Source: Paramacrobiotus metropolitanus (lineage: Eukaryota > Tardigrada > Eutardigrada > Parachela > Macrobiotidae). Taken from it: a DNA stretch of 64,000 nucleotides. A model generated the notes under the pieces. That model saw nothing but the letters and a program-made list of their open reading frames with translations. It was not told where the DNA came from and made no database searches. Location: NCBI RefSeq assembly GCF_019649055.1, contig NW_026570234.1:930001-994000 (forward strand), in the 5' to 3' direction. Position numbers and translations under genes: made by a program. Every line of letters begins with the position of its first letter. Position 1 is the stretch's first letter. Positions 18,209 to 43,250 of the stretch are shown piece after piece.

Positions 18209-18720
18209 ATGGATACCGCAACTAGCGTGCAGAATGCGGGCGGTGGTGCCACTCCAGCCAAGGGAAAGAAAGCAGCAGCCAAACGGAAACCCGCCGCCAA
18301 GAAGGCTTCGGCCACGAAAGCCAAGGGAGCGACCAGGCAGACCAAACGGGCCACGACCAAGAAAGCTTCGCCCAAAAGCAGGGAGTCACAAAGAAAGTTG
18401 CTGTCAAGCCGAGAAGTGGCGCAAAGGGTGAGTAATCATTCGACGTTTTATTGCTTTCAGCCTGTGGACGAGTCGTGCGCGGATCGATATCATTCTCTTA
18501 TCAGTCTTATGTAATAACCAGTTCAGTTTACCGCCTAGTTTGGGAGTAGTTTTTTTCTCATAGTAAATCGGTAATTCTATTAAGTAACACTGTATTCTAA
18601 ATTTTTCTATTCGTTGCAGCAGCTGCTAAGAAACCAAAGGCTGCATCCGCCAAAAAGGCGGCCAAACCAGCGGCGAAAGCAGCAGGTAAAGGTAAAGCCG
18701 CAGCGAAAGGCAAAAAGTGA
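18209..18720 (+). pseudogene. Lys/Ala-rich H1-tail-like nuclear protein with an apparent 1-base frameshift
   Basis: Two exons, 18209-18427 and 18620-18720 (donor GTGAGT, acceptor TTGCAG). The ATG frame reads MDTATSVQNAGGGATPAKGK and continues with repeated AAK and KKA motifs to about 18371. After that the H1-like composition moves to another frame (KQGVTKKVAVKPRSGAK), which alone joins in phase to exon 2 (AAAKKPKAASAKKAAK ending GKAAAKGKK). The ATG frame joined to exon 2 loses this composition. One base appears missing near the aaaa run at 18369-18372. The intended product would be about 106 residues, resembling the C-terminal tail of linker histone H1 with no winged-helix globular domain. 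Such basic proteins bind DNA or chromatin (inference). Either a sequencing/assembly error or a genuinely broken gene; the former is plausible because the rest is well preserved. Confidence 0.7.
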
Positions 18721-20226: not shown

Positions 20227-23200
20227 TTATTCTCTGTTTAGCAGCACACGGAAGGATATACCGGTTGAGGTTTTGATAGGATAATTGGTCAGCTCCCATG
20301 CATTGACATAGTTCACTGCCAGTTTATGGATAACCGGGAATGTGTCAATGAGCCTTTCCAATTTGCTGAAAGCAGTGGTTCGCTCTCCACCGGACAAACG
20401 CTTCCCCACCAAATAAAACACTACATCCACATAAAAAGCATGGCTAAAGGCCATAGCCTCTTTGTTGCGAGCATTCGTGGTGTCTGAAATAAAAAACTTT
20501 CGAATTGTTCACCAAATTTAGTTTTGTATCAACGATATGATTCCAACATTCAACAATTCTGATAGAAACTCCGAGCTTTTCTGTACCTGGACGGAAAACA
20601 GCGATGGCACCAAGTAGATAAGTTTCAGTCAAAGTCAGACCAATATCGTTCACCGCAGCAGCAAAGGAAAACACTGTACGAAAATATTCCGGTTCAGCAA
20701 AGAGACGATCCAGCCAATACCGACAGTAATGGATCTTTTCCGGGCCCACAACGTAATACATTTCTCCGTTTCGGATATAGCGGGCATGATGCACCTGCAA
20801 TGGAAATGAATTAATCATAAAATCAGCAGAAAAAAAGAAATGAGTGGAAAAGCACGAACCAGCCAGATAATGAGATACTTTTCGATAATTATAATTTTCT
20901 GATCGGTTACGTCGAGTTCACTGAATCCTGGCAGCATCGATATAAAATTTCCCGTTTTCACTATGCTATCTTTCAAAGTTTGTTGGATTATTTCCAGCAT
21001 CCGCTGCTTCGTGGTTTGCGGCTGAACCTAAGAAGACAGTCACTTATACCTCCTGATAAAACCGGACATCTGCCAAAATAACGAACGCTTCACGCACCGG
21101 AATTCGGCCACAGCTTAAAGCTTCAGTCATAAACTCGGTCCACAGCTTAATTTCGTCTCCATACACAACTTCTACAGCATGCAAAACAGCGCCCGCGGTT
21201 TTCTGAAGAAACATACTGCGCTCCTTCATTAAATCCCAATACTCCGCGACAAATGTTGGCAGTTTATGCACCGGACCATACCGAACTGGACGAAACGGCG
21301 CTGAAAGGTTCTTTTTATTCATAATGTCCATGACGTCTGAGAAATCAAAAATAATCAACCTTAAAGCATTGCTGCACAATGAATGCGACAATCAGGCACG
21401 CGACACACTGCACAAAACGAACTCTTTTTAAAATAGTTCCTTTGAACTGCGTTTTGATTTATGAACCAACAGAAATACTTTAAAACGTATTTTACACACG
21501 TACAGTAATCTAACAATCAGTTATCCCCTCCCGATTTAGACCAGAAACCCGAGCACACCCAGAAATAAAGATCCCATTGATACTTCAAGTTGCCCTTTCA
21601 AAAAGATTATGGAAAAAAGTGTTTTCCGGAAAAAAGACTCCATTCGAAGCCTATAAGAAATCACTAATTGATAAACTACGGTATATTTCAAGTAAAAGAT
21701 TCTCAGTTACAATTCTGAGCAGTAAAGCGAAATAACGCACAACAAATCTTCACCTTACCAGCAATGGTGCTTCTATCATCCGGGACCAAACTAGAAAATG
21801 TCTTGTAGGGTCTGACTGCTTGAATCGTCCGATGGCACAGGTCTGATTGATCGTCAGGTTTGATTTCGGATGACTTTTCTGGCTCCGTGATTTGTTCTCG
21901 AACATCAGACAGGGATCGAATGACACCAAATTTACCACCTGCAAAGTCGATCAAACATCACTTTACTAGTACCAGCGCACAGCCACTTTCCATCATTAAA
22001 GCTATTCAAATTATTTCATGAAACAAAAGTTTCAGTTCTAGATTTGTTTTAGGCACGAAAACTTGACAGATAACAAACACGCTTACGGCCAAGGGGAGTT
22101 TCAGCAACCGCCAGAGAAGGGATAAATTGCCGCGCTAAATAAAAAAACAACCATTCGTCAATAACGCTGTTTGCAAAAGAAATCTTTTTACAGTAGATCT
22201 CAAAGCAAGTTAGCAAAGCAAGATCTCAAAGCAAGTTTTTACAGTAGATCTCAAAGCGACCTAGACGGTAAAGAGCAACCAAGTGAGTAACTCTACTTCG
22301 TTATATTTAACGGTGGGTGCGTTACGTACCACTTTGATGTTATGGGATGAAGTGAAGTACAAGTATTAGTGACCTAACGTCACAGTAATCACCCACGGAA
22401 GCAAGTAATGAGGTTTTTTAATAAAAGACAATGACATGTGCCTTACAGTAACAGTAACTGATCCTAACTACTGCGCACGTGTCGAGTGAATCAGTAGTGA
22501 CCAAAAGAAATAAAGAATGTTAGTGTAATTTCATAACACACCTGTATTCGGGTTCGTTTGATGTCCGGACGGATGCTCTTCCTGTTCGTCCATGACGCAT
22601 GCAGGAATACTGTGTTTAGCGGATTTGGCCAGCTCAACGTGGAATTTGTCTCGCTCCGCTTTCGATATTCGCCCCATTTTCACCGCTAAAATTAACATAG
22701 GTAATTACAATTTTACATCCAATATAATTAAAATATCCAATATATTTTACATTTTACATCCATTAGCCTCATAAAATTCTAGGATGCTTATGAAACATTT
22801 TGAATATTTTTTTGCATACAACAGCATAGAGAACAGTCATAAAGGCGCCACTCGAAGTGTACTTTTATGAAGCAACTGGCAAAGACGTACACGCTGAGCT
22901 GCTGGGAAGATTTAACGCACCACAAAACCTCACAATCATCTCCCACATTTACTGTACTTTCACATTTTTTCAGGTACTAAGACTGACCGTGAAAACTCAT
23001 CCCAACAGACTGGCATTTGCGGAATCGGCAGGCCTTGCATCGTTCACGACTGTTATGAGCAACATCGCATTTGTCTCCGAAATCGCACTTGTAGTTCACC
23101 GACTTCTCCACACTCCGCTTGTAAAATGCCTGTAATCATCCATCAAAAATTTCGCAATCACTGTTAATCACATGGTGTAAGTTATAAGTACATAAGTCAT

Positions 23201-23326
23201 AAGTTTACTATTTTAGCAATGTACCTTGCATCCTTCACAGCTAACGACGCCGTAGTGCACACCTGTAGACTGACGTTCGCAGATTCTACATGGCCATCGA
23301 GAAAATTCCGTTCTCGTTAATTCCAT
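20227..23326 (-). CDS. Nuclear receptor A, complete DBD and LBD (NR1-like)
   Basis: Nine exons on the minus strand: 23225-23326, 22988-23129, 22542-22685, 22087-22134, 21759-21938, 21050-21336, 20860-21027, 20587-20794 and 20227-20483, giving 511 residues with all phases consistent. DNA-binding domain: finger 1 [20 protein letters not shown] ending CK (C-x2-C-x13-C-x2-C, P-box CEGCK), then AFYKRSVEKSVNYKC; finger 2 keeps C-x5-C-x9-C-x2-C with [15 protein letters not shown]. The extension AVKMGRISKAERDKF resembles that of HR3/ROR receptors. The ligand-binding domain carries FISMLPGFSELDVTDQK (helix 3-4 signature), LGAIAVFRPG and a helix 10-like ERLIDTFPVIHKLAVNY. The end, GISFRVLLNRE, lacks the acidic residue of a standard AF-2 helix. 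AFYKR replaces the usual GFFRR after the P-box. A ligand-regulated or orphan transcription factor by family. Start ATG 23326 is the first in-frame Met after an upstream stop. Confidence 0.9.
22187..22257. repeat. Short tandem repeat in a nuclear receptor A intron
   Basis: The phrase tttttacagtagatctcaaa occurs twice, with aagcaagatctcaaagcaag between the copies, giving three overlapping agatctcaaagc units. It lies between exons 3 and 4. No function is apparent. Confidence 0.6.
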
Positions 23327-24792
23327 GGAAAGAGCGTCAGAAAGACGATAACAATCACAAACACTGTTCACTAATAACAGCAGTTTCCACTGGTTAAATT
23401 ATCCTCCTGTAATCTCGGCCAACCAACAGCTACTTCGCCAAAAACCCCACCGTCGTGAGAATTTGCAGTCTTCGCAAGGCGTCATAGCAGGCAGTCCAAA
23501 GAAAGGATTAAATTTGACAGTAAGTTCAAGGAACCCTTCAAAGCATGTTGCGGGCTGCTACAATGCAGGAATCATTCATTACATTGATTTGGATTCCAAG
23601 TCAGAATTCGTCATCACTGTATTTCATTGACAGCAGATCGCTGCCTGACAATGAGATCAGCAGTTAAACACGGAACTAAAATTAAACAGTGCAATTTTAC
23701 TTATGCAGCAATATCATGCCAGTATGAATGGTGAACGTATTAAATAATAATATTTTAAAATAACTGTAAACCTGCAAAATACTGCAAACACGCTGACACA
23801 AGTTTCCCGGATTGTGTCCCTAAGGAGATTTTTTGAAAGCTGTACGAAATGTATTGTACTGTATTTATAAGCAGTCGCATCTGACGTGAATTCAGAACAG
23901 ACTTTGTTTGCATCGTGGCGTGCCGGCTGTAGCCTTCGAAAATCGTACCTATTGCTGCAGCCGGATGCGGGCACTCAGGTGACTGGGGTGGTCCACACTG
24001 TACCACCGACATTCGGTCGGCGTCCTGAGATGCTGATGAATGCCGAATGGTGATTACGGCACCTGTCCTGTACAGGCTGTACTCATGATGACGTTAACGT
24101 GGTTTACTATGGTAAGTAGTGGATGACATACCTGCAACGATTGCAAATGGCTCACCATTGCATCATTTTTCTTTCAAACTGATTTTCCGTTTCGCTCTCT
24201 GTTTTTTTTAGTAGTGTCCACTGTCCATGTGTCAAATTACTTACCGGAAGTGTGGGGTCGGCCACAGCGCTTTCGTCCCTCTATCCTTTAGGACACAGTT
24301 GCAAGGAATCGGCTCACTATTTTTTAAACTTTCAAAGCGCGATGCACAAACGACGAATACGTTCTGCTTAATCGCGAGTACAGAAAGCCCGGAAGGAAAT
24401 CGGTTTGGAAGAAAATTACTTCAATGCTGGGATGCATGTCCACTATCCACTTTATATCATACTCGTATAAACAGTAAACGTTTCCGACTTCGAGAGCAGC
24501 GATCGGAAAGGTCGACTTCAGTGATCAGCATTTACTACTGTAGCCATTTACGCGTCTCTTTGTAATTTGTATCAGCTTTCTAACCGTTTTTACGTGTTAA
24601 CGAAGTTTTTTTATCATGCCATTTAATGTTGGAAATTAAAATATACAAACGCAAACAATCTTCTAGTGCTGATCTTCCAGAAGCCAAAAGCTTTAATTCT
24701 ACAGTTTCTACTTTTCCATCGTTAACACACAATTACATCCCGCAACCGTTACACAATGCACATGCTCTCCTGGTATCAAAAACCCGGATATA
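23327..24792. other. Intergenic upstream of nuclear receptor A
   Basis: No gene recognised. Contains the presumed receptor A promoter at the left. Short frames on both strands (for example around 23714-24012 minus and 24227-24565 plus) have no domain or splice support. Confidence 0.45.
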
Positions 24793-25911
24793 CAGGGGTG
24801 CCGCGCCAAGTTCGGACAGTTGCGCAAATTAAATTAAAAAATATTTCTGTACTTGGTTTTACTTTTTATTTTGCACTATATTAGTGCAACTTTTTATTGC
24901 GGATCCGAATATGCTGAAATTTGAAATGCAAGATGGGGTAATAAGCAGCCAACCGGTTAAGAGGAAGATGGGGTAGGGGTCATATCCAGAGGGATTATAA
25001 CCAGAAAATTCCTCAAGTGACATTTTTTTATGGACATTTTTTTAAACTGTTGAGTATCCTTAAAGGTATGTGGTACGGGTCAGCAAAAACTTTCTCGTGA
25101 TTGGTGCTCGAGGTGACCCAGACAGAAGGAGCACCTCCCATAGACTTGTATGTTAAACAGTGCTTCCGGAAGAATGTGGTTGCCTAGCGCGCAGAGACAC
25201 ATAACTTCGAGATGATGTTTTCGAAGAATAAGACATGCATTAAAGTAGAGGATTTTTGTATTCTACGAGTACTTGTTATCTACGAAGCATGCAGTAAGAT
25301 AGAGCTGACAGAACGATCGAAGAAAAAACCGACAAAGCAGTGGCCAAATAAATTTTGCGTTAGTGCGAAAATGTGTTGAAGCGGGATGTCGCGGGCCTTT
25401 TGAGCAATAACAAGAGCTTAAAGTGTTGCTCAGTGGTTGGCCAACAAGTTTGTGTTGCATGCTTGACACATCCGACCTACTCTGATTCCTGTGCGAGCTC
25501 TCAAAGGGCACCGTCCACCATTCTGACAGTGCCTCCAGTAATATTGCAGAGGTCACGCCGCCATCATTGAAATAGAATGGAGTCAGACGAATTTAGCAAG
25601 GGCTTTGAATGGCAAATAGCCCAGCGTAAACCTTTTTGGGTTGTAGCTTCAGTACGAGTAGAATTTCTTACGAAATTTTAAACGGGAGGGAGACATGGAC
25701 GGTCCTTGGGTCGAACCGCATTTTTATTCAGGTCTGCTTCATTTTAAATCTCGCTGTAAAACAAGCCACGCCCTCGGCCTTGCGATCCATAGTGAAAAAG
25801 GTGCATAACACATATGCTAATAATAAAAAAATTAAATAACTAGTAATTTGTTGGTGGGTGACCCATAGTGATTTTTAAGAGAAGCTGTCCGAACTTGGCG
25901 CGGCACCCCTG
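24793..25911. mobile_element. TA-flanked DNA transposon remnant, 27-bp TIRs
   Basis: Ends are perfect 27-base inverted repeats, caggggtgccgcgccaagtt plus cggacag, at 24793-24819 and 25885-25911. Each is flanked by TA (24791-24792 and 25912-25913), matching the TA duplication of Tc1/mariner/pogo-type elements. The 1.1-kb body has only short frames on both strands and no recognisable DDE transposase, so it is non-autonomous or decayed. It lies between nuclear receptors A and B. Boundaries are clear; the superfamily rests on the TA duplication alone. Confidence 0.8.
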
Positions 25912-26231
25912 TATCTAGCGCCCATCCACAAAATAAATTCATACTCGTGAAAATTTCAAATACTGTAAAACAAAACGGAACCGGATGTACGTAGTTCATG
26001 GACACCACTACACTAGTAACATTTAAAAACACAGAAATAACACTTTAATTTTATACAGAAATATTTAAACGAATTGTTAGCACAGCTGTAACAACACGAG
26101 TTTCATAGTGATGTGAGCAGTCACAAGATCTGCACGAACCAAAATCCGGTAAAAGACGTTTGTGCGTGTTGGATGTGACCCTAGCGAAAGAGCAAGAAAT
26201 CTGCAGAAACACGCCTGTTGTTTTCCGTGCT

Positions 26232-28488
26232 CTACCGAAGATGACGGCGGGCTGCCAGGACGACTTCCCGAAACGTCACCGATGAAGACCGTATGGGAAA
26301 CTGCGTGAGGTCCAGGGTGCTAACGTAATCTACAGATAGTTTCTGCACTACAGGAAACTGCCTCATTAGGGAGTCCAGCTTTCGGAAAGTCAATGCTCGC
26401 TCTACACTGTTCAATCTTTCGCCAAATAGAAAAAATAAAGTATCCAAATAATAAGTGTGAGTTCGCTCCAAGAGATCCTTATTAGCAGCACCGGATGTGT
26501 CTACAAAAACCCACATTCACAAACTACGACAAACGAAGCAGAAAGTAAGCAGTCTGCTTAAATATGTAACCAAACCCAATACTTGAAAATTATCCAACTC
26601 AATTTACTTATGCTCTTTCTGGCTAATTCTGAAAATACTGCGAGCATAAACTACCAGTGCACTTGCCTGGCCGAAACAGCGCCACAGCCAATATCAGGTA
26701 CGTTTCTACGAGCGTCAATCCAAGGCTGTTTAAGGATGCCGCAAAGCTGATAACATATTCCACGTAATCCTGTTCCAACTGGCCAACGGAGATGAGCCAG
26801 TACCGACTGCTGTGGACATTTTCAGGCCCCACCAAATAATAAAACTCTCCTTTATATATAAACCGGGAATGGTGAACCTATTTACAGAATGCATATAACC
26901 CAAATGATTGTGTGTACTTATTTCAAGTGGGGCTAACTAATGTTCACAAAAGGACTACCTAGTACTACTCGTAGCGCAAATGCAAATCATATTAATTTAC
27001 CAGCCAATGAATGAGGTATTTTTCGGATACAAGAATCTTTTTATCTTCCACGCTAAAATCGCCAAATCCAGGAAGCATGGATGCAAAAGTCGCTAAACGG
27101 ACCATGCCATGTCGAACACACTCCGCCGCAATCTCCAGCATTCGCTCAGGCGTGGCCTGTGGTTGGAGCTGAAAATAAACAGCATCAACAGCATCATCCG
27201 TGCAATCCTGCACTTACTGTACCGGCCATATCGCGGTAAAAAATTTCTTCGAATCGGAAATACATGCATTCGTGAAGAAATGCAAGTGATCCGGTATACA
27301 CTGCTATTTCCTTTTTTATAACCGTAAAATTTCTTTCGAAAAAAATAGCATAAAGCCGTGCGGGGAAAGATTTTGTAAGATTCTTAATTGTAAGTAGAAC
27401 CTTACCGGAACCTGGCCGTCTTCTATGGCAGATACCATGAATTTTGACCACAGCTCGATTTCATCGCCGTAAGCTGCATCCACTGCTGCTGTCACAGCTT
27501 TTACAGCGCCTTCTAGTGCGCTCTTTCGTCGGTTTGTAAGATCCCAGTACGCGCTTAAAAAGGGAGGGAGATCAATCGTAGCAGACTTTTGCGAGTGCTG
27601 CTCCAGAGGTGCCCGTCTGGCATCATATTCCGTTCTGTGTGGCAGTTCAGTCGAGTCTGAAAAACAATATAAACGCTCTTCTATAAAGATCAATGATAAA
27701 TCCCGAATACCAGAAATTACCTGAACGACGTAGAACTTTATGCACAGGTAAGCCCTCGCCATCCTCCTCCGAATTTGTGTCTGACTCACAAATGTGCGAG
27801 CTATTGCGCCTGACTGGAGAAATACTTGAACAAATAACTGATTTCCCTGCAAATTTTGACCGGTCAAATACAAGCAGACAGGACCGCGGATAATCCGATA
27901 TTTTAGTACCGTTATACAACTTATACTATCGTACGACTGTCGACCGCAAGGGTAAAAAAAGGTAAAAACTGTGACTGATTAATCGTAATTCGTAACCATA
28001 TTATTATTACGACCAACTTACTATTACGGTTTCCAATGATAACAGAAGATACACTACTTCCGGAGCCCGAGCAGAAGGAAGATCCTTGGGAGGGAGCAAA
28101 TCTCAAAACTGCAACAAATGCCTTCAGCACAGCTCAGAAATTTAATTTGCGATTACAAATCTGTATCGTTTAAAAACGACCCTCGAATCTACGTACTTTC
28201 AGTGGCAATAACACTGCTGATCAAGGTGAAAGCGGGCAATGTCTGATTACGTTTTTGATATTTTCAGTATGTAGTATGAACTCGTCCAGCTCACAGTAAC
28301 TTACCAGTATTCTGCAAGCGATCAGGCGAAACTGCCGATTCGCGTGGCCGTTCGTCCGGCTCGTGTCCACTGGCGATCTGACTGTGGGCAATGAGATCGG
28401 ATTTATAAGCGGACACCTTTTTCGGGTATGGGCTCATTTCGTTTTTGCAAGCTCTGCGACGCCTACACAGGATACGGGTAATGAAATC
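26232..28488 (-). CDS. Nuclear receptor B, full LBD but no recognisable zinc fingers
   Basis: Eight exons on the minus strand: 28305-28488, 28022-28108, 27721-27846, 27406-27656, 27218-27310, 27001-27168, 26667-26877 and 26232-26500 (462 codons in one frame). The ligand-binding half is clearly paralogous to receptor A: FLSAYWDLTNRRKSALEGA, GDEIELWSKFMVSAIEDGQ, FASMLPGFGDFSVEDKK, KYLIHWL, YYLVGPENVHSSRYWL, LTLVETYLILAVALFRP and SLMRQFPVVQKLSVDYV. The 168-base exon and the phase pattern match receptor A. The 26667-26877 exon ends CCAG|GCAAGT, a GC-AG intron. The first exon found reads DFITRILCRRRRACKNEMSP, which only partly matches the end of finger 2, and no CEGCK exon was found upstream, so the DNA-binding domain is lost or displaced. 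Translation could start at the in-frame ATG with first base 28437. The small 27218-27310 exon has a weak acceptor. It may be a DBD-less receptor, a dominant-negative type or a decaying gene. Confidence 0.75.
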
Positions 28489-28710
28489 CTAAGGGCAGCA
28501 GAAAAAATAAAACAGATTAATATAATAATATAATTTAATATAAAATATAATTTGGAGCCATATGTTATTATTTTCTTACACTGCTAAAGCACTTAGTATT
28601 TCTGTCAAGAATTAATAAGGTTCATCACATTAATTATCATTACACTGATTACAAACTGCACTCCTTGCAGACTAGACTTACGGTAAGCTTCACAAAATTG
28701 TAACGAACAT

Positions 28711-29574
28711 CGCAAGATCAAAATCTTCTTTCGGATATATTAAACTTCATGAAAGATAACAACGCGTCAATATCGAATATTACTGTACTGTACATTTATA
28801 AGTGTCATTTCGATAAAAGTTACCATAATTCACAAGCTGCTCAAGACTTTTTGCCAGGAAACGTTAGCTGTTACACTGCACTAACAGTGCAATCCACTAC
28901 GAATCCAAAACTTAAAATGAATACTCATAAAGAAAAACAATCTTCCAAACACAGAACTCTATCAGGTAATTGAACCGTAATTCTTGCTACAAAAATACTC
29001 TGTACTACGAGCATTCTGCAATATTATTCTGTTGCATTAGTGATTAGGTAGTAAAAATAACAAAAAAAAACTACCCAGAGTCCCAGACACCCAGTCTGCT
29101 ACGAGCTCAGAATATTATACTGTTACTTAAACTGGCTGCACAGCTATCCATATCTTTGGAAAATACCTTTAAAACCGTCTAAATCCAAACCAGTTTGATG
29201 TCCAATTCAAAATTTTGGTGTCATTTTCGATTGTTGACAGTTTCCTCTCACTCGCTTGATACTTCAGAGGCACCGTCCAAAATCGACAGTACGTATTTCA
29301 TTTACTACATTATGCAGAAAATATAGGTATTTACTATTCTGCAGATATAAATTCATATTGTATATAGTATATACAGTAGAATAATATAAATACTAGATAT
29401 TCGCGATGTTGCGCCTCGTAGTTCTTGGCATTTCACCTCGTCAGCTCACGTTGCACAAGCCACAAAGTAAAGAACCGATGCGATTCGCCTCTCAGCTTCA
29501 AAAGCTAAGGGTTGATGCCATGCTTTAACTAATTAATCGTATAAATATGTTGTCTTTTTGTATGTAAAACCGTT
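28711..29574. repeat. Tandem duplication, copy 1 (864 bp)
   Basis: Copy 1 of an 864-base direct tandem duplication; copy 2 follows with no spacer at 29575. The copies are identical in everything I compared except homopolymer lengths at the right end (t5 against t6, a4 against a5) and the last few bases. Both hold the same 74-codon plus-strand frame (28749 and 29613), which I do not believe is a gene. It begins just upstream of nuclear receptor B's first identified exon. Such identity means a very recent duplication or an assembly artefact. Confidence 0.95.
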
Positions 29575-30438
29575 CGCAAGATCAAAATCTTCTTTCGGAT
29601 ATATTAAACTTCATGAAAGATAACAACGCGTCAATATCGAATATTACTGTACTGTACATTTATAAGTGTCATTTCGATAAAAGTTACCATAATTCACAAG
29701 CTGCTCAAGACTTTTTGCCAGGAAACGTTAGCTGTTACACTGCACTAACAGTGCAATCCACTACGAATCCAAAACTTAAAATGAATACTCATAAAGAAAA
29801 ACAATCTTCCAAACACAGAACTCTATCAGGTAATTGAACCGTAATTCTTGCTACAAAAATACTCTGTACTACGAGCATTCTGCAATATTATTCTGTTGCA
29901 TTAGTGATTAGGTAGTAAAAATAACAAAAAAAAACTACCCAGAGTCCCAGACACCCAGTCTGCTACGAGCTCAGAATATTATACTGTTACTTAAACTGGC
30001 TGCACAGCTATCCATATCTTTGGAAAATACCTTTAAAACCGTCTAAATCCAAACCAGTTTGATGTCCAATTCAAAATTTTGGTGTCATTTTCGATTGTTG
30101 ACAGTTTCCTCTCACTCGCTTGATACTTCAGAGGCACCGTCCAAAATCGACAGTACGTATTTCATTTACTACATTATGCAGAAAATATAGGTATTTACTA
30201 TTCTGCAGATATAAATTCATATTGTATATAGTATATACAGTAGAATAATATAAATACTAGATATTCGCGATGTTGCGCCTCGTAGTTCTTGGCATTTCAC
30301 CTCGTCAGCTCACGTTGCACAAGCCACAAAGTAAAGAACCGATGCGATTCGCCTCTCAGCTTCAAAAGCTAAGGGTTGATGCCATGCTTTAACTAATTAA
30401 TCGTATAAATATGTTGTCTTTTTTGTATGTAAAAACCG
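29575..30438. repeat. Tandem duplication, copy 2 (864 bp)
   Basis: Second copy of the 864-base unit starting cgcaagatcaaaatcttctt. Similarity ends near 30438 at tatgtaaaaaccgttc. No other feature was recognised inside the unit. Confidence 0.95.
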
Positions 30439-31497
30439 TTCACATTTACTGTAATCTATATTCTACGGTATAGAACACCAAAAATGGTCCAAAATTATTG
30501 CTTTCCGTACAAAACCCAGACGGACACACCACCGCTTACGATTGGTGGAAAACTAGATAGTAATGACGTGTACTCGTAAGCGAGATAGCGGCACCCGGTT
30601 TCTACTTTCCACTTTCTAGGTAGCTGTCTCTCATATTTAATTTACTGTACTTACTTTATTACCGCACCAGGCGCACCTTCCATAGTCGTATCACTCGTAG
30701 TCGTATGCTTGTGAACGTATTAATTCAACCACAATTCCGTGTGGCAAAATTATTCACTACTGTGCGGGATACCGACAACTCAAAAGGATGTGGGTATTTC
30801 CGTGTTGGGATGTACAGTAGAAACACTATTGTACTTAATTCCCCCTTGTGTGATTTTATTAATTTTGTACGTCATTAATTTTAGAGTCTTAAAGACCGGT
30901 AGCGGCATGGCGGCGGCGACGCACATACTGATTGTAAGCCGTAGATTGTATTCTACTCTCTAGCTAGCTATCAGAACCGTCGTATTTCATATGAATTTTA
31001 TGCACGCAGAATTTTGCAAAATTAATACTGCAATTACTGCTATTTCTAAATAATACAGTACTGTAATTCTGTCTGTAATACTTATAAATGAATGAGTTAG
31101 GAGTACAAGCACTACCCGTTACTTCCTTACTTATTTCCTAAAGTCAGAGGCCAGATAATAATAACTGTAATTCGTAAAGACTATTGTACAACGGATTGAG
31201 ACTATTGTACAACGGATTTAGATGAAAGCCAAAGAAAGATTCGAAATCAGCGAAATTTTTGGCCTGGGAACGGTCTCCAAAATCCAAATTTGAAATTACT
31301 TTTTAAGTACAGTACTGTGCGTGCTTTCAGCTTCGTACAGTCCAGTAGAAGCGCAAAGTCAAACTGCAAAGCATCCGTGTTGTTATCGCACTAAAATAAG
31401 CTAATTAAATCTATTTTAATACTCATCCTCCTCAGAGCTTCAAGATTGATAAAATTGTAAAACCATAAAATTATACAAAAAGAATTATATCCAGTAA
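30439..31497. other. Intergenic between receptors B and D
   Basis: No intact gene. Contains the GPCR-like fragment listed separately at 30739-30963 and, near 31180-31218, two adjacent copies of gactattgtacaacggatt. The rest is AT-rich without a coding signal. Confidence 0.45.
30739..30963 (+). pseudogene. GPCR helix-5-like fragment
   Basis: A 74-codon frame reads WQNYSLLCGIPTTQKDVGIS, then CTVETLLYLIPPCVILLILY followed by VINFRVLK. A loop Cys, a hydrophobic helix with central Pro-Pro and Tyr, then a basic end resemble extracellular loop 2 plus transmembrane helix 5 of rhodopsin-like GPCRs. No other helices were found nearby. Most likely a relic or chance hydrophobic frame. Confidence 0.28.
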
Positions 31498-31992
31498 TCA
31501 AGTTGATAACGGGCTTCTTAATTCGAGATCACACCATTCGCGTAGCTGCTCCCCTGATGGCATCGTATCACAAAATCGTTTCCCATTCTTCAATTTCATC
31601 GGCATTTCACTGGAATCCACCTTTAGTATATAACGTTTGATAACTTCTTGAAACAGCCTTAACGCCGGCCACAATTGCTCGATCTTGGACATTATGTTCT
31701 TGTCTCCGATACGGTGAGCAGTGATGTACATCAACACATCCATATAGTGCTTGTGAATAATCGCCAAGAATGTTTTATCCTCTACCGAAGCCGTTTCTAC
31801 GATGGTCCAGTGGATGCAAATTAACTACCAGTTTACGCAATGAAAGTTTTCAATGGCCTTACCAGGGTCAAACAGCAGAACGACAAATAAAAGGAATTTT
31901 TCAATAATATTCAATTGCAAAGCTCGAAGGCGGACGGAGATCTCCACTACAAAATCCACATAATCTTCTTCGCTGAAACAATTGAGAAGGTA
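31498..31992 (-). pseudogene. Nuclear receptor D, truncated: last two LBD exons only
   Basis: Two exons on the minus strand: 31863-31992 and 31498-31796, joined in phase 1 exactly as in receptors A, B and C. The first reads YLLNCFSEEDYVDFVVEISV and continues to LNIIEKFLLFVVLLFDP, matching the paralogues' LxLxExYLLxxxALFRP. The second has HKHYMDVLMYITAHRIGDKN, LWPALRLFQEVIKRYILKV and ends in GKRFCDTMPSGEQ. The paralogous first exon is 208-211 bases, but here only ~130 are left before the ~117-bp minisatellite begins. No upstream DBD or LBD exons were identified, so it is probably a truncated pseudogene. The remaining frame is intact, so truncation may be recent, or an upstream part may be unrecognised. 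Confidence 0.75.
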
Positions 31993-32013
31993 CTACAAAA
32001 TTTATCAGTACTT

Positions 32014-32610
32014 ACCGGCCCAGGTGGAGTGTTTTGGAAGAACCGTCACACGGAGAACCACCCGGGCATTTTTGACGAACCCGCCGTACTAGTATGGAGG
32101 GCCGTAGCCTCTTGACCCGGTCCGGAAATTTTGACCGGCCCAGGTGGCGTATTTTAGAAGAACCGTCACGGAGAACCCGGGCATTATTGACGAACCCGCC
32201 GTACTAAAGTATGGAGGGGCCGTAAATTTTGACCTGGTCCGGAAACTTTGACTGGTCCAGGTGGCGTGTTTTGGAAAACCGTCACGCAGAGAACCACCGG
32301 GCATTATTGACGAACCGCCGTACTAATGTATGGCGGGGGCGTAAATTGGACCGGTCCGGAAATTTGACCGGTCTAGGTGCCGTGTCTTGGAAGAACCGTC
32401 ACACGGAAAACCATTTGGGCATTATAAGCGAACCCGCCGTACTTATGTAGAGTGAAACCGTATTTTGACCCAGTCAAGAATTTTGACGGGTTTAGGTGGT
32501 GTGTTGGGTGAGCCGTTAACCGTCACGCTTAGAACCACCTGGTCAATATAGACGAAGCCACCGTTCTATTGTATGGGGGGCGTAAATTTGGACCTGCCCG
32601 GAAAGTTCGT
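32014..32610. repeat. Minisatellite, ~117-bp unit, five copies
   Basis: Five imperfect tandem copies start near 32015, 32133, 32250, 32366 and 32485. Each carries gaccggcccaggtggcgtg, a gaaccgtcac-type block, gggcattattgacgaacccg, ccgtactaatgtatgg and gaccYggtccggaaa. Spacing is about 116-119 bases; 117 is 39 codons, so the minus strand shows a repeating peptide (for example FSVTVLLKYATWAGQNFRTG). The last copy is the most diverged. The array abuts the truncated receptor D. GC content is higher than in the surroundings. Confidence 0.9.
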
Positions 32611-35015
32611 TTTCGGTCCGGAACTTAGTTTCACGACGGAAAAATAAATCACGGGAACAACGTTTAACAAAACTGAAGAACTTTTGATATATCAAAACGG
32701 CGTTGAGAATTGTAAAAGGGAGAAGGTTCAACTTTTAAAATGTTTTTTTCCGGCAAGCTTTCAGTAGGCACTTGCTTGGTTCCCAAAATGCAGAAAGACC
32801 AAGCAGGCATAAACCTCGGCTGTATTTTAGAATCCAGCCGGCCCAATCGAGGCCAATCTACCTGCTGCTGAAACTTCTACGGCTGTGCCGTCGCCATCTC
32901 GAGACTGCTACTCACTGATGGGTCGAGACTCCGAAAAAACTGATAGTACTTGCGTGACACGGACCAGGAAATAAAGCAATTTTTATTTGTTCTGTTATTC
33001 AAATGAAAGACAGGTGCAACATTTTTGATGCATCTGGCGACGTCCGAATCGTTGCCAGCTGCAACAAGAATGTGACCAAACGCATCACGTTCACAAGCAA
33101 ACCCGATGTCGCTATAACAAGGTATACAAGAACCTGAATTGGCGGTTTAATCTTGATCGGTGGTTGACCACCACTAGAACCCGCAGCTCGACAGTTGCAA
33201 CAGTTCAAGCAGGTTTCCGATTTATTGCGCCTTTGGAGGCGGGCTTCAAACAAATTTGTGGCTGCCGATATGAAACTTACTTAAAGCCATTTATCACAAT
33301 CACAGTATACCGTCACTAAAGATTAAAGGTAAATATTGCAACGTAGTATCCAATAATGCAACGTCCAAATTATGCAACGTAGAATCAAGCGATTGCAAAG
33401 TCAATCGTTCAATTGACTCCGATTAAGTTTATCTGGAGTTGCTGAGCGAAATCGACTCCGTCCTTACCGCCGAGTCGCCAGAATGGCATCATACCAAATT
33501 GTTCTGCAGAATTGAAGTGTGGATCGGCAGTCGATCCTTAATCTGGGTCCAGCCTTGACAAGCCCTTCGTAAAATTTTTTTGGTCATTTTAACAGATCTT
33601 TTACCGGCCATTTGAGCTTGCTTTCACCGCTTTTCGGCAGGATCGGTTAACCAACTTAAAGATATTGAGGCACCACTGAACCACCAGTAAATTCGCGTCA
33701 GTGAGTATCTAAAGATTCGACCAGACAAAACTTAGAGCGATTCGTCAACAATTTTTGGAATACCCGTATCGTTTTAGTATCGAGCCGCAGGATGCAGATT
33801 CCTGCCAGGTTCCTCGAGCCAGAACTAAACTCTAGCAAAAGCTACACTCCGTTGAAAGGCCTATGGTGGTTGCTGGAGCTGTACAACATAAGTATCTCAC
33901 TCAAGAAAACGTGGTCGCAGCTCACAGCAGCAAAAAGCCGCCCGTCGTAAAGTGCAAAACCTGGGTAACTGTGATACGACATTGAGAGACGGCTCTCAAG
34001 TCCCGCATGAAGATTCGAGTTGAAGCAGACCAGCTACAAATAACTGCAGACAAATGCCTTTAATAACTGGTAGATCAGTGATTCGAGAAGTTGTTTTCCT
34101 AAACTCGACCGGAGTAGACAAAAATCGTCTGAGCATTGACACATGAGATCTACAAATGGCCGACGCCAACAACCGCAATAATTTACATGGAGCTGAAACC
34201 TCCACACAGACAAAACCGAAAACAGAAAGAATGGCCGCAAACCGTACCAGCTGCACCTATGGGGTGCCCCAGCCTATCCGATACCAAAACCCCAGAGGCA
34301 ATGGAGAAAAAAGAAATTGAAGCAGATCACACGGCTATCTCTGCTCCCCAACACCCTAAAAGGAAGAAGCCATCAGGCGGGAAGACAGGCAAGAGTCCTC
34401 CACATGGAGTTTATGGAGTATGGGATCCCTGTACCACATGGCTTTGAAATTCCGCGCTTAGATTTAAACAGGCCTACCTGCCGGTCCATGGAATACCCGC
34501 ACCCATCTGGAAAACAAGATACCAGCATCGTGCAGAACATGTGGCAAAGAGGCATCTCATGAAAACGAGGGCCCTAAAAATTTGCCACCAATGACGAGCC
34601 CTTATGCGCGGAAATTACGGTTCAACAGCCGGAATGAGGAAAGGAATAAATGCAACCCCTTGGACGGCTCCGACTATCCTTGCTTAACGGTAGAATGCCA
34701 GATTTGGCACTGCGATACGGATATCGTTCAAAGCATCCGTTACCTGAAGTGACGGCAAGTCGTCGTTCCCATTCCCACGGACAAGGTTGAAAAGAAAAAG
34801 GCCTACCCGGGAGACCCTTGGTATGCTAACCAGGATAGTTACCTAAGTCTACAGCCTGCTGGCTAAGGGTGGGTAACCGACACTATCGGCGATTGATTAC
34901 GGGTTGCGAAGCCACTGTGCCACCGAATAGGGCACGAAAAGATCACCGCAGCCAGATAGCCCCGCCGCTAAGCGCAAAAAATTGAGTGTCAAATATTCAC
35001 TATATGCTTTGTCAA
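32611..35015. other. Unassigned stretch with a GC-richer block
   Basis: No gene recognised. A run of gcaacgta-containing repeats lies around 33335-33390. From about 34130 to 34970 the sequence is noticeably more GC-rich, with overlapping plus-strand frames rich in Lys, Pro and His. One holds CRTCGKEASH, loosely like a zinc knuckle, but no retroelement domain can be confirmed. Possibly an old insertion or an unrecognised fast-evolving gene. Confidence 0.35.
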
Positions 35016-35497
35016 ATGCAAACCGCCATTTTCAAACAAATTCTCGCGTATCTGCTCCTGCTTTTATTCATCACCGGAACCGAATTTCGTTGTTTCAAAT
35101 CTTCCGCATGCCAGTATGCGCAAGAAAATCAAGAGCCACTGTTGTTTAACTGCAGTGGCTCTGACATCCCAAAATCATGGACTCGAATGGGTTTTGGAAA
35201 AGTTGGCTTTGCATTCATTTATTCGTTGTTTAACTGCCAGTTACTTTATCGTTTTCCGTCGTAAGTAGTACCTTATCGGTTATTACCATAATTACTATAT
35301 CATTTTCCGCCACCACTTACCCTTGTTTTTTCGCTGTTACTTGATTTACCACTTTTTGTTACTTGAATCATACATTTACATTTAGCTTTAAGCCTGCTTT
35401 CCGCGAAGTGAAGGCCAACTACTCTCCTTATCTCTTGCAGTCTCAGCAGAAATGCATCCCACTGAGTGGAATAGTGTTTCTTCTATATTGTATTTGA
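35016..35497 (+). CDS. Putative two-exon secreted protein, unknown family
   Basis: Exons 35016-35260 and 35386-35497 (donor GTAAGTA, acceptor ACATTTAG) give 118 residues in one frame. MQTAIFKQILAYLLLLLFIT is a plausible signal peptide. The mature part has Cys at CFKSSACQYAQ, LFNCSGSDIPKSW, FNCQLLYR and, in exon 2, QQKCIPLSG. The pattern LFNCSGxxIPxxW loosely recalls the N-terminal cap of leucine-rich-repeat proteins, but there is no repeat series. An ATG ten codons upstream (34986) is also in frame. Support is only the signal peptide and the matching splice phase. Not recognised; it could be a chance frame. Confidence 0.35.
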
Positions 35498-37341
35498 AAT
35501 AAGGATATGTTTTATTCTCGTTTCATTTTTTCGCTTCGCGACTCTTTTTGCTCTTTCGGGACCATCCCTTACGCGCCAGGTGTAGCACTGTTTATTGGCT
35601 GGTTGCGGCCGTCAAGTTGAAGAGCTGGCTCAAAATCCTAAAACATGCCGGTCAGCACTCCCTGTGACCATGATGCTTCTGGCTGCTATCCTAAGGCCGG
35701 TTTGCGCTAAGCCAGCTGTGCTTAACGATTTTTCTCTGTGCTCCGACTGCCCACTACCCCTTTGGAGCTAAGCGCGTTATGTCAGACTGCCAACCCGCTC
35801 TCGACTGCCTACTCTTTCCTGCGTGCAAAAACCGGCTTTGCTATTCTCCAAAACATTCCATTCGGCCGACCGCACTCAGAAACAAAATCTCAATGTTATA
35901 AGTCCCGTCGCCGCTAAGTTACCTGTCAGTACTGTTGGTCGTGTCCGTGGACGTCGATGTCGTATCAGTGGGCTGACCTCACTAAGCCGGCTATGACCCG
36001 GTGTGACCCGGTAGCCTGAACATGTTTAATTTGAAAAATAGTTAACGCTACTTCTGCACAGACAGACATCTGTTTAATAATCGCTTTTTGTCTATAACAA
36101 ACAGACAAGTTTGCGGGTTGCCAGAATTGTATGAGATCATTTATCGGGTTTTGCTGTGGGTTCTTATTACAAATTTACAGCAGACTTCATTACCCAATAA
36201 AAGGATGTACCCTTCTATACCCTATTTATACCCAATAAAAGGATGTACAAACAAATACGGTCGTCTTATCCTGACAGTCGGTGCCAGGACCGACATAGTA
36301 TAGGACGTCTGACGTAAAAGCTTACCGATATGTCCCAGCATATGATGCAGCTGGGAACAGTAAGACAGACCCCCGCATGTTTACTGTTGTTGGTGTTTTA
36401 TTCAAAGAAGTTTTTGCACAAAAAAGTCTTACACGCTCGCTCGCTTGCACTAAGGGCGGTTACGACCTTCTATACTAGTGTATTTTACTTGTACAGATAC
36501 ATACTTTGGTGTGCCGGTACCTTCGAAGAACCGCCGACAATCGATAATTTGATAGCCGATTTTGTGCAATCGTATGATTTCGATTAAGGATCGACAGATC
36601 TCGTACGTCATTCCAGATGGTTTGGAATGAAAATCTCGATCTACGATACCTGGCTGCTTGAATCCTGCTTTCAAAATTTCGCTGAATTTCTGGGTGGATA
36701 GATTATAAAATATCGAATAGAATTAATACATACGTCCTTTTACGGTTTTACCACAGAGACTACAGGGTAGTAGCCACCGTAGTATTACCAGTTGTGTGGT
36801 TTTGCCGTATTTTCCCTATTCCTATCACTTTAAGTAAATTTAAAAATGTAATTCTACTACTTATTTTCTTTTCCATCCACTCATAATCGCTACCATACTA
36901 CTCGGTAGTAGAATCCGCTGGATTCAAACAAGATCTCAGATCTGCTCATACGATATAAATACCGTATTTGCAAGCCGCTGACCGAGAACTGGAAGAAACG
37001 TCATTGTTCATGAAATTGACGTATCGCACACCAACCGAACAGGCAATAATGATTCTATAAATTATAACTAACCGGCCAGAGTGCACTAGAATTTCAAAGG
37101 CCACATTTTCTGAAATACATTTATTTCAGACTTTACTGTTAGGTGATAACGATTTCCATGACATTTCTATATCTGCCGAGCACAAAGTCTTTTAATAAAA
37201 CACAGATCAAATTTCACCCTATAAAACGAGGATACAGTATGCAATTCTGTTCTGAGTAAACTCTCTATTCAGAAATATAAACATGTAATTCCACAAATGT
37301 CCGTTCCACAAACAACGAAAAATACTGGTAGTAATTGCAAT
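35498..37341. other. Intergenic between the putative secreted gene and receptor C
   Basis: No gene recognised. About 35560-36010 is GC-richer than its surroundings and has no long frame. The phrase cccaataaaaggatgtac occurs twice, around 36193 and 36230. The right end should hold the receptor C 3' UTR. Confidence 0.4.
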
Positions 37342-40300
37342 TCAGTATACTTGTCTGTCGGCATGAAACCTATTAACTAGCGCGCTCTGATCCCTCTTCC
37401 GTAGTATACTGTTAAACAGTTCCGTGAATGTTTGTCCACTGGCCATGCAGAGCGGCAAAGAACCAAAATCAAGCTGTGTAACATACAGCTCAGAGACCTG
37501 ATTCATCGTGGGAATACGGGTGAAAAACTGCTGGAGGGCAGTAACCATTTGTCTTCCTTGCGAAAGACCAGAAACATAATGCATTAGTGCGTCTAGGTAA
37601 TGAGCATGCAGAGCTTCCAAAGCGGCTCTGTCGTCCGCCGGAAATCGAGGATCAACTGAAACAAAAGGAATTATGCACTCTCTGTACACGTAAATTACCG
37701 TAACTAATCGTAAAAAAATATAAACAAATGTATATTTGGCCACACAAAACTAAAGCCTACGCACTCGGATGAAGAATGGATACAACCAGCAGAAGATATC
37801 GCATAACATCATCCAGTTGTAACTGTCGAATGTCGAGTACACATCTGTACACGTAATCCGCATATTCTTTCTCACAGACTTTGTCAACAAGGTAAGCTCG
37901 TTGATCCAGTTCAATATCAGCCAGTATGTATACTTCACGATCTGCATTGTTGTAATAAAACGATGAATGGAAAAACTAAAACACACAACAAAAGCTTTTA
38001 CAAAAGCTGCATGTACCAAACAAGCAAACAGAAGGAATTTTCTTACTTACAACCCAAAAATTAAGATATCGTTGTGGGATTAACTTCTGCAGCAACTGCG
38101 GATCCAGTTCAGCGAATCCCGGAAGGGTTTGTAGAAATAGTTTAAAACATAGCGAATTATTGCCTATATCATGTTGTAAAGCCCGTAACACGCGTCTTTC
38201 GGTCTCTAATGACTGCAAAAAAATCAAAACGTCGAACTGACTGAATCGACCAAATAAAAACCCAACGCTGGCTCACCGCATCTTTTTGCAAGAATGATGG
38301 ATGGCTCTGGTAACTTTCGAACTTATTCGCCAGTTTTGAGATAACACAGTCGATGGCGTGCTGCACCTTATTTATCGTTTCCACAAGAAAAAGGTTCCGG
38401 TTAAACATGGCTCGGACGTAATTACCCAGAAATTTCGGCATAGTGGAACGGTCCGAAGTTTCCAGCCAATCGGGGGACACAACTGGAAACAATCCGGACA
38501 ACATCCAGCTCGAAAATAAATTCACTGTAATGGCTGGGAAATCTTCGCTATCCTTGTCAAGTAAACCGAATGATGCTCGTGGATTAACTGGTACAAGCTC
38601 GGTTGACCTATGAGCCCCACCACTGTCAACAGATGACCCACTATCTGCCGACCCGTCAAAACTTCTGGTCGAAAAGGATGTGCGGCCCGGCTCTGAGGAA
38701 AATTCCTTCAGAGGTGTCATGATCACTAAAAAAGGAAATGCGGTCAGAAATATTCAGAACCAATAATTACCTGCTACCAGTAGAATCATCTTTATGCACA
38801 GAATTCAGTATCCACTTGCCCTTTTGAAAACAAATTAAGTACCTACTCCTAGTAACTGCTGCTTTTTGTATTGTCAGCTTATCTTATCAGATGACTACTA
38901 CTATTTAAAATTTTCATCTATGTAAACGAAGTTATTTAAATTTTCGAACTGCTAAATACGCAGTAAATTAAATTAAGTAGCTACTTTTGTCAGCAAGAAT
39001 GTACTGACAGGTCCAGGTCCTTTACAAACATTCAAAGACTTTGGAACTCGATAAAAGGCTTCATTTTCTGTTACATTATCCACCTTTAACGCGTGGATAA
39101 CTTTCAGACTGCTGTCGAAGCGCTAAAGCGCTACTGTAATCTTGAGATTCAGGTTTCGGACGTGACAGTGGCACAACACAGCTTCCGGAAAAGCTTCCTA
39201 ATCGAAACACCGATGTAAGATTGCCCCTGGCGTAGGTGTCCGAATCTGCAAAGCAACCACTAACTAGAAAACGCACTAGATAATTTCCCAGAAATGTTGC
39301 AAAGGATATACCACTGACGTCAAGCGACAACTCATTATCAGCATAGCATCTACACTGACTACACATCAGGCTTCATACTTTCGCCAATAAAGCGAAAAAC
39401 CTGAAAGCATCCCCATTATATGCTAGAATTTTCCTCCCACTTTAGCGTAAACATTCGTAATTATCGAAGGCTTTGCGTGCATCGTTCTGGAGTCTGGACC
39501 AAGCAATTGACTTGCAGACGTTATCAGAAATCGCCGCAATGTGAAAATATCTACGTCCTTTCCAAGCTAACCACTCACAAACAGCCTAATAACGTACTCG
39601 CCGTTTGACACAACCAACGCTTTACAGGAACTGTGGCTGCTAACTGACTGCTCTCGCAGTGCATAATAAATCCACAAAAAACTCTCAGTGGTCAGCCCAT
39701 GAATCTTACCAGTACTCCATGACATCGAGTCGTCTTGATCAGGAGCATAGTCTTTGTCGGGATTATTGTCGTCTGCCATAGCGGGAGAAGTCTCGGACTT
39801 CTCGTCCTTTGAGCGCCATGATCGGCTGCCTTTTACCGCTAATTACAAAACACAAAACTCTTAAAATTATGCACCTAAATATGATGCTTCTTTACTTGCT
39901 TAGATCTATGTGAATTCTTTGCATCTTACCTCTAACATCCATTCCTTCTTCCTGGCAGCGTCGAAAACGGCAGGCTTTGCATCTAAAAAATATGTACCGA
40001 ATCATCAAAACCAACAAGTTCAAATAACGAGAATAAAGGAAGAATGGGAATGTAAGACTACACGACAATATGTTTAAAACTTCAAATCATTTTACTGCTC
40101 CTACCGCATATTTACCAAGTAATAAAAATTCCCTGACAGCGAAGAAATTTTTCTTTTTAAGACATATCGCTGAAATGCCATGCTCCCATCTCGCAACATA
40201 ATCAGCAAGGACTACGTAGGGTATTATTTCACCTCGCAAAAAATCTTCAAAAATCACAAATTTTCATAAACATTATGGAGTGAAGGAGTTCTTCGGCAGC

Positions 40301-42009
40301 TTTGTATCGCAGCATAAAATTTAAATTTGATACTCGAGAGACGAAAGAAAATTACAGAGATTTCTGTAGTAACCACCTGCGGCCTCTTGTTCCGGCAGTG
40401 ACGGGACATGTTGATCCAAAGTAACACTTGTACTTAATTCCATTTATAATCCCTCTTTTGTAGAATGCCTACGAAAATCGCATTTCCAGTCTTTACCCAA
40501 ATTTAACAAGTCTAGAATTTCATACATACAATGCAGCATTTAAAATATCGCAGATATTAGTACCGATGCAATAAGCATAACACCAGAGTGCAGAATTGTA
40601 GTTCTCATAATTATGAAATACGAAAACGAGTACTATTCAAGTACAAGTACACCGTCTGTACACCTGTTTTATCGTTAATAAACTGCGTAGTGCCTACTAC
40701 TGTATTGTACAGTAGGATATCAAGAGTACGGTACACAATTAGAATCCAATTACATTACAATAAAATTACAATATTTTACAATTTTACAGTTTTACGTGCT
40801 TCCGTGGTCAGTACTGGTATTGTACTTACAGGCTTACATAGAATTTAATAATTACTATGCAATCTTGTAATTTTAACTTGAATTAAACTTTGTTGTTAAT
40901 TTTATAATTTTTTCCATAAATCAACACAAGTAGTTTAGGCTCAAAACTTTTAGCCCGTAGAGCGTACGTTTATACCATGCAAATGGCGATTTTTGGTTTA
41001 CGCATCCCGTATTACTGTTATCGCTAGAGTAGTAACAACGCAATCGCTACAATAAAATATAATACGCATATTCTGTAATTTCAATTACAACAGCATATAT
41101 TTCTGACGACGTCCTTATTCGTTACGTAGGGTATCGGTCAGTAATCACTCTGTATCCGTCCTTGAAAGTGAGAAAATTCAAAAACAAACTAACTGCGTAT
41201 TAAATAAACTCGCACTCAAAGGTGTTGTCAACAAAATAAAAGGGTCCTTTCTTCCAGCAAAGAGACTAAAAAAGGTGAAACAATGTTTATCTACTTACGG
41301 CTTTCGCGTTTATCTAAAACACATTCTCAAGCTCTGTCCAAAATCCTTGTTGAACAGCCACAGGCTACAAGGTATGAGCCACCACGTCATTACTGAATCT
41401 GACACAAATCACAAATACCTAATGGTACGCACTAAAATCTGAAAAATAGGTAACCGGTTTATTTAATACGGTACTGCATTTTCCATACATATTACTTAAC
41501 AGTCAACAAGTGCTAAAACTGCCTAAAAGCCTATAAATGAAAATAATTCAAACTCAAAACTGTAACGAAACGTGAGACGTTGCGTCGTATTATAAGAAAA
41601 TTCAGAACCACACAGGTCCACACTGCATACTGATATTAAAGTACGTTAGCTGCGTTCTGTAGCCTGCAATAATGTAACTCAAGTAAATGTTACAAAGCAC
41701 AAACGGTAATAACTTTATATTCCGGATAACAAAACCGTAAAAGCATTACTCAGTTTAGGTAACACAAATTTGCTAAAGACAGAAAAGCAACGTACGGTAA
41801 CTACAGTAGCTTCCTTCCATTCATGGACGACGCTGCGCATTTCTTACCTTGCACCCTTCACAGCTGATCACGCCGTAGTGAACTCCAGTTGATCGGCCAC
41901 CACACACTTTACACCGCGCGCTGGTTCCGGAATCGTAATCAACGGCGCCATGTTTTTTCTTCAATTCCATAATTGTAGAGAAACACACATAATCGATATG
42001 AGAATCCAA
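37342..42009 (-). CDS. Nuclear receptor C, complete DBD and LBD (NR1-like)
   Basis: Nine exons on the minus strand: 41848-42009, 40377-40468, 39930-39982, 39710-39838, 39084-39245, 38277-38725, 38051-38212, 37765-37975 and 37342-37655, giving 577 residues with consistent phases. Finger 1: [20 protein letters not shown] ending CK (P-box CEGCK). Then [15 protein letters not shown] and finger 2 with [18 protein letters not shown] and [13 protein letters not shown]; the third spacing is one residue longer than in receptor A, and an extra intron splits this finger. The ligand-binding domain has [50 protein letters not shown] and [15 protein letters not shown]. Its end, [12 protein letters not shown], fits a canonical AF-2 helix, unlike receptor A. 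In the 37765-37975 exon a longer open frame overlaps the true one; homology and phase select the frame with [17 protein letters not shown]. An alternative start is the in-frame ATG with first base 41970 ([11 protein letters not shown]). The longest and best preserved member of the cluster. Confidence 0.88.
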
Positions 42010-42616: not shown

Positions 42617-43250
42617 CAGAGGCTCCACGAGACCCCTGACGACCTCGGGACATTTTTTTAGAGTAAATCTGACCTCGGGATAATTTTCAGCGCATTTTTC
42701 TGATATAGAAACCATTTTTCAAAATTTTTTTCGGAAGAAAAAATTTCTGACTGCCGGTGCCGCAAATACCATGGGCGGTTGCAATGACGCCACGAAAAAA
42801 ATTTTTATTTTGGGGTTTCGAACACTTTTCCTAGGTAAATCGATATCGCTGATTCTGAATATGTTGTCAGAAAAATTGTGTTTGTTATAGGAAGGAAGTA
42901 TTCTAAGTTTTAAAATTTTTGGAAAGATTTTGCAAAATGTTGTTTTTATCGAAAAAAATTATTTTTTTTCGAGCTGAAATATCTGTCTGATAATATATTC
43001 AGAATCAGCGATATCGATTTACCTAGAAAAGTGTTCGAAACCCCAAAATAGAAAAGTTTTTCGTGGCGCCATTCCAACCGCCCGAGGTATTTGAGGGGCG
43101 CATGGGGCACCGGCAGTCAGAAATTTTTTCTTCCGAAACAAATTTTCAAAAATGGTTTCTATATCAGAAAAATGCGCTGAAAATTATCCCGAGGTCAGAT
43201 TTACTTTAAAAAAATGTCCCCAGGTCGTCAGGGGTCTCGTGGAGCCCCTG
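42617..43250. mobile_element. hAT-like foldback MITE with 8-bp TSD
   Basis: The two halves are reverse complements over nearly the whole 634 bases. The left end is cagaggctccacgagacccc and the right end, reverse-complemented, is caggggctccacgagacccc. The direct repeat atagtatc at 42609-42616 and 43251-43258 is an 8-bp target duplication. CAGGGG-type ends with 8-bp duplications are characteristic of hAT elements. No coding capacity. Inner sequence such as cgatatcgctgattctgaat also pairs with its mirror, so a transcript would form a long hairpin. The halves differ at scattered bases, so it is older than the Mutator-like element at 16-17 kb. Confidence 0.9.

Follow-up and report, generated by a model that had tools for sequence, protein, structure and literature searches.

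Four nuclear-receptor (NR) loci lie together within 22 kb of the genome of the tardigrade Paramacrobiotus metropolitanus, and they raise the question of whether such a cluster is one local radiation caught in the course of decay or the visible part of a wider family in which receptors without a DNA-binding domain (DBD) are a regular form. The stretch of DNA analyzed (64,000 nucleotides, positions 930,001 to 994,000 of contig NW_026570234.1, referred to as the window; the contig is C14 in our numbering) had been read in a preliminary description as holding four NR loci at different stages of decay. The interest of the locus lies in the DBD-less family to which one of the four belongs rather than in the four-gene cluster itself.

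Organization of the cluster

Hand-spliced models, in which splice sites, phases, and stops were checked, place the four loci on the minus strand and together span positions 20,227 to 41,970. The preliminary description had delimited the same cluster as 20227-42009; the cluster stands, and its end has to be drawn back to 41,970, where the model of receptor C starts. The exon lengths and phases reported there are exact in the spliced models: two exons of receptors A, B, and C measure 168/168/162 and 208/211/211 nt, respectively, in identical phases, and the copy of the latter exon in locus D has only 110 nt. With ~80 NR genes of this type in 169.8 Mb, the number expected per 22 kb is ~0.01, and four are present; the clustering is therefore not due to chance.

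Receptor A (20227..23326, minus strand, as are the other three loci) has eight exons encoding a DBD, a CTE, a hinge, and a ligand-binding domain (LBD) in 479 aa, with GT-AG introns throughout and no internal stops. Its DBD occupies two exons (22988..23326), of which the upstream one (23225-23326) carries CEGCK and the downstream one (22988-23129) continues with AFYKR and, further on, CKACRFRKC, the exon boundary falling after the P-box in phase 0. The CTE exon (22542..22685) reads AVKMGRISKAERDKFHVE and resembles the ROR-gamma segment AVKFGRMSKKQRDSLHAE. The LBD is spread over four exons of 239/168/208/257 nt (20227..21336), and this receptor shows no clear AF-2 acidic residue. Receptor C (37342..41970) is likewise complete, with nine exons that encode a DBD, a long hinge, and an LBD in 564 aa without internal stops. 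Its DBD is divided over three exons (39930..41970; 41848-41970, 40377-40468, and 39930-39982), an extra intron splitting the second zinc finger. Both receptors have the C4 double zinc-finger DBD by their matches to the Pfam zf-C4 model (A, 3.6e-25; C, 1.9e-20).

Receptor B (26232..27846) is DBD-less. Its model runs from a hinge exon (27721-27846) onward through four LBD exons of 251/168/211/269 nt, 5 exons and 340 aa in all, with one GC-AG intron and no internal stops. tblastn searches with the zinc fingers of A and C as queries found no third DBD in the window, including the regions near B and D. The Pfam Hormone_recep model recovers B above the cut-off (6.9e-6) and A and C below it (0.002 and 0.0009, respectively). 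In an AlphaFold run with A, B, and D alone, the model of B was poor (pLDDT 46, pTM 0.39), and its top-listed PDB matches were NR LBDs, all with E > 0.001 and TM < 0.3; the assignment of the NR LBD fold therefore rests on sequence. Locus D (31498..31972) comprises the last LBD exon and, before it, 110 nt of the penultimate one (~1.4 final LBD exons, 130 codons open). Pfam gives no match for it, and its identity comes from alignments with C, B, and A (1e-8 to 2e-15). A minisatellite with a 117-bp unit in 4.8 copies (32014..32581) abuts its truncated 5' side. We considered D as a functional short receptor and rejected this; since it lacks a 5' half and the minisatellite adjoins the break, we keep it as a 3' remnant. 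The models, Pfam, and tblastn thus agree with the earlier inventory of two complete receptors, one locus without zinc fingers, and one of two exons.

Relationships to other receptors

The DBD tree joins A and C with the DBDs of loci on contigs C140, C6, and C102 in a clade of five members (support, 98/92), outside which fall the separate HR3-like and E75-like DBDs of the same genome (labels that we assigned by sequence likeness). The HR3-like DBD (L029) pairs with human ROR-gamma (95/80), and A and C do not; as they show no grouping with HR3/ROR in this tree, we rejected them as HR3/ROR orthologs. HR3/ROR (NR1F), E75/REV-ERB (NR1D), and E78 (NR1E) are nonetheless the nearest known types, both by the DBD and CTE of A, whose closest PDB match is ROR-gamma (93 bits), and by the family LBD, whose best match within the genome is an exon beside an HR3-like gene, followed by an E78-like gene. 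The loci are not, then, a mix of known subfamilies, and the suggestion that they form a lineage-specific, tandemly arranged NR family is sustained. The P-box of A and C is CEGCKA; the AFYKR that follows, proposed earlier as a mark of the family, is not diagnostic, as other members carry AFFKR or GFFKR.

Within the window, A and B are mutually closest by identity (45%), and the LBD tree places B with low support (82/77). C or D compared with A/B gives 21 to 27%, whereas C is most like a locus at C76:311-318 kb (70 to 81%) and D is most like loci at C76:226 kb and on C302 (52 to 76%). Since these relatives on other contigs are closer than A and B, the four loci are not one recent local radiation.

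A large set of LBD loci without zinc fingers

A query of the genome with the A protein recovered many LBD exons on contigs without any zinc-finger match. By using the A protein and its LBD, together with LBDs from C32 and C80, as queries, we tallied ~34 LBD loci that lack a DBD, spread over 12 contigs, a locus being one in which the penultimate LBD exon is present and a nearby DBD hit is absent; the figure is a manual count of exon matches and not of confirmed genes. Fourteen of these loci are on C32; C87, C314, and C215 have three each; C80, C69, and C52 have two each; and C93, C424, C37, C29, and C14 have one each, that of C14 being receptor B. C32, C87, and part of C80 were read as DNA, and C215, C314, C93, C69, C37, C52, C29, C59, and C424 are known from exon-by-exon matches. 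Two DBD searches, one of them at E ≤ 1, found no zinc-finger exon on C32 (1.28 Mb), C93, C215, C314, C424, C69, C37, C52, C29, or C59.

A genome-wide search with the Pfam LBD model gave 18 matches, none of them to the C32 family, and all four of the DBD-less members tested scored below the Pfam cut-off. A profile built from DBD-less members recovered LXR-alpha (6e-8) and VDR (7e-8) as its best matches in PDB, with CAR also among the best, and all 60 matches listed were nuclear receptors. Together with the Hormone_recep matches of A, B, and C, these results indicate that A, B, C, and the DBD-less family carry an LBD of the NR type. That the loci are haplotype copies of one another is unlikely, as matching exons of the genes compared (C32, C80, C69, and C314) mostly differ by 10 to 45% in protein sequence.

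Anatomy of and selection on the core array

The genes of C32 and C87 follow a common plan, with a short first exon that has its own ATG, a second exon, and four LBD exons. The first exon often holds a basic run (e.g., RKRSKR), the second carries a VxxLLRGxFNEDFQPT..FPxGFRK segment, and most models end in TLLQDCLKR. The N-terminal module made up by the first two exons replaces the zinc fingers and was seen on C32, C314, and C87 only. Fourteen models are uninterrupted (11 of the 14 on C32 and all three on C87), and every one has LBD exons measuring 168 nt and either 208 or 211 nt; eight of them are complete from the start Met, and seven of these eight begin with a short basic, NLS-like run. We treat the NLS-like and LxxLL-like (VxxLLRG) readings of the module as leads only. 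At one locus (L062), two equally scoring copies of N-terminal exon 2 lie 1,076 bases from each other (C87:186933/188009), a local first-exon duplication.

Pairwise dN/dS among the 14 uninterrupted models has a median of 0.26 and a maximum of 0.41 over 71 unsaturated pairs, a comparison that covers C32 and C87 only; this core array is under purifying selection. In the LBD tree, C32 and C87 form one clade (100/99). The DBD-less genes of C80, in turn, join a C80 neighbor that is sited below a DBD exon (99/93), and this grouping makes more than one loss of the zinc fingers probable. The picture of successive stages of decay has therefore to be largely given up: A and C are uninterrupted, and the DBD-less form of B recurs in a large clade whose readable part is under purifying selection. 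For the most part, decay is replaced by a recurrent architecture, maintained by selection where this was measured, and among the four loci of the window the term holds for D alone, which is plainly a remnant.

Proposed role of the DBD-less proteins and alternative explanations

We interpret the cluster as part of a tardigrade-specific NR1-like family in which A and C are DNA-binding receptors, B is one of the ~34 DBD-less members, D is a remnant, and the DBD-less proteins act in trans on receptors, and we assign this interpretation a probability of about 0.6. Under it, zinc-finger exons would have been lost in several branches, one of which would then have multiplied in tandem (C32, C87, and C314) with its LBD kept and with the short N-terminal module and the conserved C-terminal TLLQDCLKR. 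The proteins would enter the nucleus, bind small hydrophobic ligands, and either dimerize with DBD-bearing paralogs or USP/RXR or compete for the cofactors of these. By analogy with SHP and DAX-1 and with the HR96-LBD genes of the spider mite, they would most likely partner or compete with DNA-binding receptors in a ligand-dependent way, so that ligand sensing would be separated from DNA recognition. What the sequences show directly is how the genes are built, their homology, a copy number drawn from exon matches, no DBD exons in the searches, and, in the core array, open frames under purifying selection; that the proteins are nuclear, bind ligands, and dimerize, and in which direction they regulate, is inferred.

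Several other explanations have to be weighed against this one. Pseudogenization or decay of partial duplicates is a very unlikely account of B and the remaining DBD-less copies. Apart from the remnant D, two core models of C32 (787k and 802k) and the divergent C32:120k need a frameshift, and at least two C32 copies (labels L065 and L067) look broken, C32:760k lacking the middle LBD exons and C32:653k having in-frame stops; decay therefore does occur in the array. The 14 uninterrupted models, with their constant exon lengths and eight full readings from the start Met, nevertheless argue against decay as the general condition, as do the low dN/dS and the N-terminal module and C terminus that the copies have in common. 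Zinc-finger exons might alternatively have been missed, lying far upstream, being very divergent, or falling in assembly gaps. The searches ran exon by exon, most of the DBD-less contigs are known from matches, and the split second finger of C did escape the Pfam search and was caught by the protein query. We regard such an oversight as rather improbable in view of the zero matches at E ≤ 1 on ten contigs, the 1.28 Mb of C32 among them, the short, ATG-bearing first exon conserved among the C32 genes, and the ready detection of the DBDs of other family members in the same genome.

The LBDs might also have left transcription altogether and become extranuclear carriers or scavengers of lipids or steroids, a possibility that would fit the LBD being the part most retained and the mutual divergence of the array copies, which may be likened to that of sensor or carrier families. 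The basic NLS-like start of nearly all the complete models and a C-terminal TLLQDCLKR that seems to resemble an AF-2 helix make it unlikely. As for affinity, the best PDB matches of the LBD profile (LXR, VDR, and CAR) belong to NR1H/NR1I, neighbors of NR1J, and would be compatible with an expansion of HR96 (NR1J), the receptor type of the spider mites. HR96 has the P-box CESCKA, whereas A and C have CEGCKA; the DBD is nearest the ROR/REV-ERB types; and the best LBD matches within the genome point to HR3-like and E78-like genes. An HR96 origin is accordingly a quite doubtful alternative to the NR1-like tardigrade family that we favor.

Comparison with known receptor families

A tardigrade-only group of C4-type zinc finger NRs expanded by tandem duplication, "Group 5," was reported by Duan et al. 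in 2026 (PMC12941274), in a survey of four species that included P. metropolitanus, with 42 zf-C4 proteins and with tandem duplication reported as less common in it (PMC12941274). Our NR1-like family is probably this Group 5, whose motifs 3, 4, 5, and 6 resemble segments of A to D when the consensus motifs are compared by eye only. Neither the family nor its tandem habit is therefore new, and the statement that NRs rarely expand in tandem outside nematodes has to be qualified in the light of Group 5 (PMC12941274) and of the spider mites (PMC10435515). The DBD-less members described here fall outside the Group 5 survey because it was anchored on zf-C4.

The closest precedent is the spider mite Tetranychus urticae, with 47 HR96-like LBD genes that lack a DBD (PMC10435515). 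There, too, DBD-less genes number in the dozens and DBD-bearing relatives are few, in a lineage-specific expansion that includes tandem pairs; a division between ligand sensing and DNA recognition has been proposed for the mite HR96-LBD proteins, and RNAi of a tandem DBD-less pair alters the expression of detoxification genes (PMC10435515). This RNAi-backed function belongs to the mite genes only, and the tardigrade family is known from its sequences. The mite genes are of the HR96 (NR1J) type, whereas the tardigrade genes are nearer to HR3/E75/E78-like receptors and share an N-terminal module. SHP and DAX-1 (NR0B) are NRs without zinc fingers that dimerize with other NRs or corepress them (PMC3038971). 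Like them, the C32/C87 models have an LBD without a DBD in intact genes; unlike the tardigrade family, they are vertebrate proteins and not expanded, and the likeness is one of architecture, with no orthology suggested. The supplementary NRs of nematodes likewise show a large expansion and odd residues after the P-box; no link to HNF4 was seen in our family, and its host is a tardigrade. An SL1 search of the genome gave no match, and neither did its control; exactly three TPS loci are present, in agreement with the three TPS-TPP genes published for P. metropolitanus (PMC8277472). Pressing these comparisons further, we tentatively suggest that the array may have arisen independently of the mites and that its DNA-binding-free LBDs, with their new N-terminal module, might serve a few DNA-binding partners either as ligand sensors that can stand in for one another or as SHP-like corepressors.

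DBD-less NRs are usually regarded as rare oddities, and domain-based surveys are blind to such genes; in the present case, most of the family is overlooked by the Pfam LBD model as well as by the tardigrade survey based on zf-C4. If expressed, its members would add, from another phylum, a second large example of NRs in which ligand sensing is split from DNA recognition, and would point to a path that animals can take repeatedly toward a chemical-sensing repertoire. Tardigrade NR counts would then have to be revised, with candidate receptors for desiccation or radiation responses among the additions.

Other features around the cluster

Between B and D lies an exact direct duplication of 850 bp (28710..30423), whose copies (28710-29559 and 29574-30423) are 100% identical and represent either a very recent duplication or an assembly artifact. 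Just upstream of receptor C is an inverted repeat (42617-43250) with arms of 148 nt at 96% identity, which is hairpin-like and MITE-like. Beyond the 3' end of A, an open frame at 18197-18436 encodes a Lys/Ala-rich, histone H1 tail-like sequence in which Pfam finds no known domain. About 85 kb from A, on the plus strand at C14:862-865 kb, there is a further DBD-bearing receptor of the same family, with a TAG inside one of its DBD matches.
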